Shown in pieces: positions 30,826 through 32,322 of a stretch of 64,000 nt of DNA (positions are counted from its first letter, which is position 1; the number at the start of each line of letters is the position of its first letter). Below the pieces are notes generated by a model. The model was not told the origin of the DNA and did no database searches. It saw only the letters and a program-made list of their open reading frames with translations. This DNA comes from Youhaiella tibetensis. Its GTDB lineage: Bacteria; Pseudomonadota; Alphaproteobacteria; Rhizobiales; Devosiaceae. The stretch is taken from the NCBI RefSeq assembly GCF_008000755.1, contig NZ_CP041690.1, positions 3,225,260 to 3,289,259 of the forward strand. The letters run 5' to 3'. The position numbers and the translations under genes were made by a program.

Positions 30826-30844
30826 GTTGCGAATGAGGCTCCCG

Positions 30845-30877
30845 CCTCCCTCCCTCCGTTGTGGGGAGGGAGGGAGG
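30845..30877. repeat. Palindromic CTCCC repeat after uvrC
   Basis: CCTCCCTCCCTCC (30845-30857) and GGAGGGAGGGAGG (30865-30877) form a 13-bp stem with a 7-nt loop. It belongs to the same family as repeats at 32237, 32287, 52298 and 52376. It may also act as a terminator for uvrC. Confidence 0.65.
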
Positions 30878-30960
30878 GGGTGGCAGCACGCTCGGAGCCT
30901 CGGCGCTCCGCCTTAACAAAACCTATTCCCTCTCCCGCCAACCCGCGCTATACAGCAGTC

Positions 30961-31044
30961 ATGAACCTCATCCGCCCGGTCGCCTATTTTTGGTACTTTA
31001 GCTATCCGATGCCGCTGGCGGACGGAGGGTCGCGCTTGGTCTAA
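30961..31044 (+). CDS. Aromatic-rich leader peptide upstream of aroG
   Basis: 27 aa: MNLIRPVAYFWYFSYP followed by MPLADGGSRLV. Residues 9-15 read Y-F-W-Y-F-S-Y, so six of seven codons specify aromatic amino acids. It precedes a DAHP synthase gene by 88 bp, with a terminator hairpin in between. Its 3' half contains GCTGGCGG (31014-31021), which is complementary to the 5' arm of that terminator (31076-31083). This is the layout of a transcription attenuator: ribosome stalling at the aromatic codons would favour the antiterminator. No strong Shine-Dalgarno is apparent. Confidence 0.72.
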   Translation: MNLIRPVAYFWYFSYPMPLADGGSRLV

Positions 31045-31083
31045 GTAGACGCAAAGCAAACGAGTTACCCGACAGCCGCCAGC
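31014..31083 (+). promoter_or_regulatory. Antiterminator of the aroG attenuator
   Basis: GCTGGCGG at 31014-31021, inside the leader-peptide coding region, pairs perfectly with CCGCCAGC at 31076-31083, the 5' arm of the terminator. The two structures are mutually exclusive. Confidence 0.6.
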
Positions 31084-31100
31084 TTCCTGGCGGCTTTTTT
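31075..31100 (+). terminator. Attenuator terminator before aroG
   Basis: GCCGCCAG (31075-31082) pairs with CTGGCGGC (31087-31094) around CTTC. Six T follow at 31095-31100, 33 bp before the aroG start. Confidence 0.88.
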
Positions 31101-31132
31101 GTCGCCGGGAGGTCCATCAAAGGAACCGACCG

Positions 31133-32206
31133 ATGTTGAAATCCACCGACGACCTGCGCATCAGGGAATTGCGCGAACTGAGCACTCCGGCAGAAGTGAT
31201 CCGGGAGTACCCGCGCACCGAAGGCGCCACCCGCACCGTCACGGGCTCGCGCCTCGCCCTTCACAATATCCTGGCCGGCCGCGACGACCGTCTCGCCGTC
31301 GTCATCGGCCCCTGCTCGATCCACGATCCGGAAGCCGCGCTCGACTATGCGGCGCGCCTGTGGGAACTGCGCCAGCGCCTGGCCGGCTCTCTCGAGATCG
31401 TCATGCGCGTCTACTTCGAGAAGCCCCGCACCACCGTTGGCTGGAAGGGCCTCATCAACGACCCCGATCTAGATGGCAGCTTCCAGATCGACAAGGGCCT
31501 GCGCCGCGCCCGCAACCTGCTGCTCGAGATCAACGACATGGGCCTCCCGGCCGGCTGTGAATTCCTCGACATGACCACCCCGCAGTATTTTGCCGACCTC
31601 GTCGCCTGGGGTGCCATCGGCGCGCGCACCACGGAAAGCCAGGTCCACCGAGAACTGGCCTCCGGGCTCTCCTGCCCGGTCGGCTTCAAGAACGGCACGG
31701 ACGGCAATGTCCGCATCGCCCTCGACGCGGTCAAATCCGCCACCCAGCCCCACCACTTCCTGGCCGTGACCAAGGATGGTCGTTCGGCCATCGCCACCAC
31801 CACCGGCAACGAGGACTGCCACATCATCCTGCGTGGCGGCAAGGCGACCAACTACGACGCCGCCAGCGTCGAAGCGGCGGCCGCGGAGTCGCTCAAGGCC
31901 GGCATCCGCCCGGCGATCATGATCGATGCGAGCCATGCCAACAGCTCCAAGAAGCCGGAGAACCAGCCGCTGGTCATGGAGGACGTCGCCCGCCAGCTCG
32001 AGGCTGGGGACAACCGGATCATGGGCGTGATGGTCGAGTCCAACCTCGTCGCCGGTCGCCAGGACCTCGTGCCCGGCAAGCCGCTGACCTACGGTCAATC
32101 GATCACCGACGGTTGCATCGATTGGGAAACGACCGTCACCGTGCTCGAACGCCTGGCCAAGGCCACCGAAACCCGCCGGCAGGTCAGCAAGCAGGAAGTG
32201 GCCTGA
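31133..32206 (+). CDS. aroG: 3-deoxy-7-phosphoheptulonate (DAHP) synthase, class I
   Basis: 357 aa, cytoplasmic. It condenses phosphoenolpyruvate with erythrose 4-phosphate in the first step of the shikimate pathway. The type I-alpha signature is complete: VVIGPCSIHD near 58-67 (metal-ligand Cys), RVYFEKPRTTVGWKGLINDP near 87-106, GARTTESQVHRELASGLS near 163-180, the catalytic Lys/Asn stretch VGFKNGTDG near 182-190, HANSSKKPENQ near 261-271, and the C-terminal SITDGCIDWE. Length matches E. coli AroG/F. AAGGA lies 8 nt before the ATG. Regulation probably involves the aromatic leader peptide upstream. Which amino acid controls the enzyme allosterically is not shown. Confidence 0.95.
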   Translation: MLKSTDDLRIRELRELSTPAEVIREYPRTEGATRTVTGSRLALHNILAGRDDRLAVVIGPCSIHDPEAALDYAARLWELRQRLAGSLEIVMRVYFEKPRTTVGWKGLINDPDLDGSFQIDKGLRRARNLLLEINDMGLPAGCEFLDMTTPQYFADLVAWGAIGARTTESQVHRELASGLSCPVGFKNGTDGNVRIALDAVKSATQPHHFLAVTKDGRSAIATTTGNEDCHIILRGGKATNYDAASVEAAAAESLKAGIRPAIMIDASHANSSKKPENQPLVMEDVARQLEAGDNRIMGVMVESNLVAGRQDLVPGKPLTYGQSITDGCIDWETTVTVLERLAKATETRRQVSKQEVA

Positions 32207-32236
32207 CGCAGGACATTTTCGGATCCCCACCCTTGT

Positions 32237-32256
32237 TCCCTCCCACGGGGGAGGGA
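32237..32256. repeat. Palindromic CTCCC repeat after aroG
   Basis: TCCCTCCC (32237-32244) and GGGAGGGA (32249-32256) form an 8-bp stem. Same family as 32287, 52298 and 52376. Confidence 0.55.
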
Positions 32257-32286
32257 GACATGCTGGCATGACCCAACCCCATCTCC

Positions 32287-32322
32287 TCCCTCCCCCTTGT
32301 GGGGAGGGATTGAGGGTGGGGC
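32287..32322. repeat. Palindromic CTCCC repeat before pgsA
   Basis: TCCCTCCCC (32287-32295) and GGGGAGGGA (32301-32309) form a 9-bp stem, followed by TTGAGGGTGGGG. The same unit with AACAAGGGTGGGG recurs at 52298. Confidence 0.6.

Follow-up and report, generated by a model that had tools for sequence, protein, structure and literature searches.

The commitment of carbon to the aromatic amino acids, all of them, is made by DAHP synthase, whose genes in E. coli are under the TyrR and TrpR repressors, with feedback inhibition in addition. How might the class I 3-deoxy-7-phosphoheptulonate (DAHP) synthase gene aroG of Youhaiella tibetensis (Devosiaceae) be controlled? The gene lies within the 64,000 nt of DNA that we have analysed, here called the window (GCF_008000755.1, NZ_CP041690.1 3,225,260-3,289,259, forward strand). 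It is preceded by a short ORF and a terminator, which an initial annotation of the sequence had read as a classical leader-peptide attenuator. Comparison with other loci supports that reading: the ORF is conserved in alpha-, beta- and gammaproteobacteria together with both alternative pairings, which covary. We regard it as highly probable from these comparisons that the aroG leader works by ribosome-mediated transcription attenuation, as trpL and pheL do, and controls the class I DAHP synthase gene.

Anatomy of the leader

The elements of the locus are collected in Table 1. The leader ORF has 27 codons, with Y-F-W-Y-F-S-Y at codons 9-15 exactly as annotated. The terminator placed at 31075-31100 is likewise present, but its stem begins at 31074, one base earlier than had been claimed. 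It is formed by the hairpin AGCCGCCAG-CTTC-CTGGCGGCT (31074-31095) with a T-run to 31100, and has a calculated folding energy of -16.7 kcal/mol. The proposed pairing of GCTGGCGG at 31014-31021 with the 5′ arm of the terminator is borne out both by covariation and by its exact complement CCGCCAGC at 31076-31083, which lies inside and slightly beyond that arm. Folded as a single sequence, the leader is not of unusual stability (z -1.4). In the minimum-energy fold, region 4 is able in the antiterminated state to pair with GTCGCCGGG directly 3′ to it (31087-31110).

The product of the downstream gene scores 526 bits against TIGR00034, where the cutoff is 173, in agreement with its annotation as class I DAHP synthase. 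GC-rich, near-palindromic repeats (CCCTCCCTCCGTTGTGGGGAGGGA and similar) occupy the intergenic DNA flanking aroG, at 30840-30880 and around 32230-32320. The pattern occurs nowhere else in the window and resembles a dispersed repeat.

Table 1. Elements of the aroG leader region of Y. tibetensis, numbered from the first nucleotide of the window
Feature	Position	Strand	Basis and remarks
Putative -10 element, TATACA	30949..30954	+	Sequence; placement kept in alphaproteobacterial relatives; ends 6 nt 5′ of the leader ATG
Leader-peptide ORF	30961..31044	+	Sequence; ATG 30961, TAA 31042-31044, 27 codons, product MNLIRPVAYFWYFSYPMPLADGGSRLV; counterparts in Devosiaceae and other orders
Region 1, TCCGCC; pairing partner GGCGGA in region 2 (protector hairpin)	30971..30976	+	Sequence, folding; local hairpin -16.0 kcal/mol
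Regulatory codons Tyr-Phe-Trp-Tyr-Phe-Ser-Tyr (codons 9-15)	30985..31005	+	Sequence; codon columns of 111 aligned relatives
Region 2, GCTGGCGG, 5′ half of the antiterminator, within the ORF	31014..31021	+	Pairs with region 3; covariation; nucleotides kept across differing reading frames
Region 3, CCGCCAGC, common to the antiterminator and the terminator 5′ arm	31076..31083	+	Exact complement of GCTGGCGG; covariation, folding
Intrinsic terminator (regions 3 and 4)	31074..31100	+	9-bp stem, 4-nt loop, T-run; covariation, folding
Probable Shine-Dalgarno sequence of aroG, AAAGGA	31119..31124	+	Sequence
aroG, class I DAHP synthase, presumed regulated gene	31133..32206	+	TIGR00034; sole class I copy in the genome

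Promoter and start of the leader transcript

The predicted promoter falls just outside the interval first annotated (30961-31100). It has a good -10 element and a weak -35, because of which it matches only 7/12 consensus bases. The -10 element is placed for a transcript beginning at the leader ATG or directly beside it. The alphaproteobacterial set as a whole has a GTGACA-N17-CTATAT-type promoter spaced for a transcription start at this ATG, and its best promoter matches average 8.2/12 consensus bases, compared with 4.7 in shuffled sequences. A C immediately precedes the ATG in 95% of these sequences, and no Shine-Dalgarno-like sequence precedes the leader ORF at 112 alphaproteobacterial loci. 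The alphaproteobacterial leader ORF thus appears to be leaderless. There is a precedent in Sinorhizobium meliloti, where the trpL transcript begins with its ATG (PMC7298713).

Distribution and genetic context

How widely is the leader distributed? We sampled the regions upstream of class I DAHP synthase genes at 80 loci from named genomes and at 100 Devosiaceae loci, with the window and its closest relative among the latter. The initial annotation had suggested looking in relatives for conservation of the leader and its pairing, and this was found: an aromatic leader ORF followed by a terminator is present at 100/100 Devosiaceae loci (99 by scripted search and one by eye), and at 157 loci in all. 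In Bradyrhizobium, Mesorhizobium, Xanthomonadales and Burkholderiales, too, class I DAHP synthase genes are preceded by this element. Examples of the leader peptides are MITVATSYFWYFSYDSSLAAGGSRSI in Bradyrhizobium, MIHLTATYWYFSSSLAAGGLRSI in Mesorhizobium, MILTSTRYYFWFYGYPMPLAEVGARS in Dyella, MNANRSFYFWYYGFPMPLAEEGVRSP in Xanthomonas and MSAKFYFYFFWHLRPLADREGESYTG in Caballeronia. One genus of Devosiaceae (g6; L003, L089, L090 and related loci) has GCTGGCAGCC as region 2, which pairs with the terminator over a shorter length, and a second Trp codon (SRWQP) 3′ of the aromatic run.

A covariance model (R1) was built on 56 of the collected sequences. It matches at full length 62/81 named-genome loci, the window being counted, on some of which it had itself been trained; loci at which no full-length match was found include those of Enterobacterales, Vibrionales, Rhodocyclales, Ferrovum and Methylotenera. 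Because of this overlap in training, two genome surveys (142 and 299 genomes) provide a fairer test. Of 142 genomes of Alphaproteobacteria, an even draw of roughly one from each family, four encode class I DAHP synthase, and strong leader matches (E <1e-17) were found in the identical four. Every strong match was directly 5′ of the class I gene, and the weaker R1 matches were mostly to the terminator only. Among 299 genomes of Pseudomonadota there were 36 R1 matches past 1e-6, of which 34 lay directly 5′ of class I DAHP synthase. The other two precede pheS and contain the known leader peptide of the pheST attenuator, providing an unplanned positive control (E 4e-8 and 3e-7 at L259 and L260, from two genomes belonging to a single family, probably Enterobacteriaceae). 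That R1 recognises the pheM leader suggests that the two attenuators have a common layout of aromatic run, region 2 and terminator.

In the Y. tibetensis genome the aroG leader is the single full-length strong match to R1. A second copy of the leader was considered and rejected, since the next-best matches are to the terminator only (26 bits). Class II DAHP synthase is encoded in 118/119 good Devosiaceae genomes and class I in 92/119. We found no conserved aromatic leader at 20 class II loci searched at full length on both strands, where dense ORFs were few, nor any aromatic leader at the class II gene of Y. tibetensis itself. With no comparable leader found at these class II loci, the attenuated enzyme of the Devosiaceae would be the class I isoenzyme, which is the additional one. 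In the alphaproteobacterial survey the class I gene is rare (4/142) and each time accompanied by the leader, as if the two were moving as a unit; in a protein tree most of the alphaproteobacterial class I enzymes fall in one group.

Taken at the level of sequence, these comparisons establish the ORF with its aromatic codons, the terminator, a covarying antiterminator and an association exclusively with class I DAHP synthase.

Covariation of the alternative pairings

Covariation was evaluated in a 56-sequence alignment with 500 shuffles and with slid controls. In the terminator 92.8% of pairs are kept, with both sides changed in 35 cells; in the antiterminator (regions 2:3) 85.4% are kept, with 15 cells changed on both sides. 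For each structure 0/500 shuffles reach the observed score, and the slid controls lie clearly below it. Moreover, a region 2 matches the terminator arm of its own locus more closely than arms taken from elsewhere (permutation p <1/5000, with relatedness between loci not removed). As telling examples, region 2 and terminator arm are GAGGCGGT/ACCGCCTC at L027 and GCCGGCGGT/ACCGCCGGC at L058, compared with the usual CTGGCGGT/ACCGCCAG.

Region 2 stays GGCGG while the reading frame through it and the resulting peptide differ (PLAD, LPAE, RRRT, PKAV). As the nucleotides are kept despite the changes of frame, region 2 appears to be selected as RNA. The protector hairpin of regions 1:2 (TCCGCC/GGCGGA in the window) is found in several clades; its support as a conserved feature is only moderate, with p<0.05 in 27% of relatives.

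Codons of the aromatic run

In 111 leaders aligned at the Trp codon, position -1 is Phe or Tyr, +1 Tyr or Phe and +2 mostly Phe. Phe and Tyr codons undergo synonymous exchange with a strong excess of those ending in U: column +2 contains TTT 91 times and TTC twice, and the corresponding counts in seven CDSs around the locus are TTC 82 and TTT 14. Conservation at the level of codons with synonymous variation supports translation of the leader ORF, and on these comparisons the Phe, Tyr and Trp codons are evidently selected as codons.

Across 142 distinct leaders the mean content is 2.7 Phe, 2.4 Tyr and 1.0 Trp, with all three residues present in 88%. Phe occurs in all the leaders compared and Tyr in 99%; Trp is missing from 11%, mainly betaproteobacterial. 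If only those codons are considered that would leave region 2 free beneath a stalled ribosome, all three residues are represented in 73% of leaders, and Phe with Tyr in 92%.

A model for attenuation

Translation of the leader, stalling of the ribosome, the effect on transcription and the choice of relevant amino acids among the three we infer from this organization, as follows. Transcription would probably begin at the leader ATG or directly beside it, with translation of the leader following without delay. A lack of charged Tyr-, Phe- or Trp-tRNA would cause the ribosome to stall on codons 9-11 and cover region 1. Region 2 would then be free to pair with region 3 as the antiterminator, and transcription would continue into aroG. 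When all three tRNAs are charged the ribosome would pass region 2 to reach the stop codon, whereupon regions 3:4 could pair and transcription would end around 31100.

We have modelled these states by folding with an approximate 32-nt ribosome footprint masked. With the A site at codons 9-11 the antiterminator is about equal to the terminator or slightly favoured over it, the difference being only ~1 kcal/mol; the antiterminator is also transcribed before the terminator. At codons 12-13 the exposed region 1 shifts the balance toward termination, at codons 14-26 region 2 is covered by the ribosome, and a ribosome at the stop codon gives the terminator an advantage of 7 kcal/mol. On this modelling the window would sense best at codons 9-11 (Y, F, W). 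Region 2 is separated by 20 nt from the stop codon 3′ of it, a distance that is also the median in relatives, so a ribosome at the stop cannot mask region 2 itself. Termination must consequently make use of timing, of refolding of regions 1:2, or of a ribosome located in the loop. We would propose that the 1:2 hairpin refolds once the ribosome has passed, a solution for which support is only moderate.

Alternative readings

Could the ORF have arisen by chance ahead of an ordinary terminator of uvrC? The uvrC gene is on the same strand and ends 135 nt upstream, yet no other of the 462 short ATG ORFs in the window has, like the leader, >4 aromatic residues per seven, and 20 shuffled windows contain no ORF with six aromatics per seven. 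Conservation and covariation over three classes, with different genes upstream, refute a chance origin, which we regard as extremely improbable. A further alternative is a function in trans. The terminated leader RNA, the peptide or both might act mainly in the manner of rnTrpL/peTrpL of S. meliloti, with control of aroG being secondary. The apparently leaderless ORF of the alphaproteobacteria resembles S. meliloti trpL in that respect (PMC7298713), termination would free an RNA of ~140 nt, and the residues beside the aromatic run (FSYP) are conserved among alphaproteobacteria. Against this, class I DAHP synthase always adjoins the element, and towards its C terminus the peptide shifts frame freely while region 2 of the RNA stays. 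We therefore consider it very unlikely that action in trans is the principal role. By analogy with S. meliloti trpL, a leaderless terminated RNA or its peptide may nevertheless act in trans as well as in attenuation. Identity with the published Burkholderia sRNA BcKCsr7 (RF02884; a weak match of 14.8 bits) was also discarded, as the Burkholderia aroG leader (L048) has no match and those in the Y. tibetensis genome lie elsewhere.

Given an attenuator, which amino acids would it sense? The initial annotation took the mixture of codons to imply a response to all three charged tRNAs (Tyr, Phe and Trp), and the codons are consistent with this. We consider it nearly as likely as not that the leader is a three-input sensor for which shortage of Tyr, Phe or Trp alone would suffice, since the correctly spaced codons 9, 10 and 11 are one of each; in this reading the switch and its class I gene would have been inherited as a cassette in alpha-, beta- and gammaproteobacteria. 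Codon content alone is no proof of sensing, since in Corynebacterium glutamicum Tyr is reported to be ineffective though it is present in the leader. The attenuator could effectively sense only one or two amino acids, such as Phe, or Phe and Tyr, the remainder being passengers. The absence of Trp from some leaders, set beside the near-universal Phe and Tyr, makes this a possibility to be taken seriously. It fits less well with the alphaproteobacterial leaders having the core motif, which all keep their single Trp codon, with the position of the Trp codon, which in 80% of all leaders is such that a ribosome stalled there leaves region 2 free, or with the window, whose three best-placed codons specify Tyr, Phe and Trp once each.

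Relation to known attenuators

The nearest precedent for the aroG leader is aroR-aroF of C. glutamicum (Neshat et al. 2014), an attenuator before a DAHP synthase gene with a Phe-Tyr-Phe leader, in which Phe acts and Tyr availability is reported to be without effect (PMC4046766, PMC11802643). It shares with the aroG leader an aromatic leader peptide, a DAHP synthase gene and ribosome-mediated attenuation, but it is actinobacterial and contains only Phe-Tyr-Phe, with no Trp run. The initial annotation could name no described leader of this kind at a class I DAHP synthase gene, a remark to be corrected in view of aroR-aroF, although for the proteobacteria we too found none in the open literature searched. 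The trpL leader of S. meliloti and other alphaproteobacteria is also an attenuator of an aromatic pathway with a leaderless ORF at the first base of the transcript (PMC7298713), but it has consecutive Trp codons only, controls trpE(G) and has been shown to act in trans too.

The pheL-pheA leader of E. coli (Phe_leader, RF01859) is a classical Phe attenuator of an aromatic biosynthesis gene; the gene and codons are different, and RF01859 has no match in the window. The pheM-pheST attenuator of the Enterobacteriaceae is known from experiment (Springer et al. 1985). Like the aroG leader it consists of a leader peptide and then a terminator, and is recognised by R1, but it controls phenylalanyl-tRNA synthetase, has mostly Phe and no Trp, and is half the length. 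No amino-acid leader family of Rfam (RF01859, Trp_leader RF00513 and others), riboswitch or T-box family matches the window or 20 related loci, the leader families being judged at their gathering scores.

In a review of proteobacterial regulons, attenuation among aromatic genes is named for trp and pheA only (PMC5343134), and the main text of a survey of premature terminators makes no mention of aroG or aroF (PMC2965389). We found no description of a proteobacterial aroG attenuator in the open literature; Vitreschak 2004, Panina 2001, Lopatovskaya 2010, Neshat 2014 and the attenuator database of Merino may list some of these sites. The kind of mechanism is a textbook one, and its widely conserved proteobacterial aroG version does not seem to be catalogued. 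The leader is compact and has an RNA model, and would fill a gap in Rfam and in the annotation of small proteins.

Unlike E. coli, a wide range of alpha-, beta- and gammaproteobacteria seems to sense directly whether the three aromatic tRNAs are charged. If this is true, RNA would do in one half of the Proteobacteria what repressors do in the other, and the Devosiaceae would have put only their second, class I isoenzyme under the attenuator, leaving the class II enzyme outside it.
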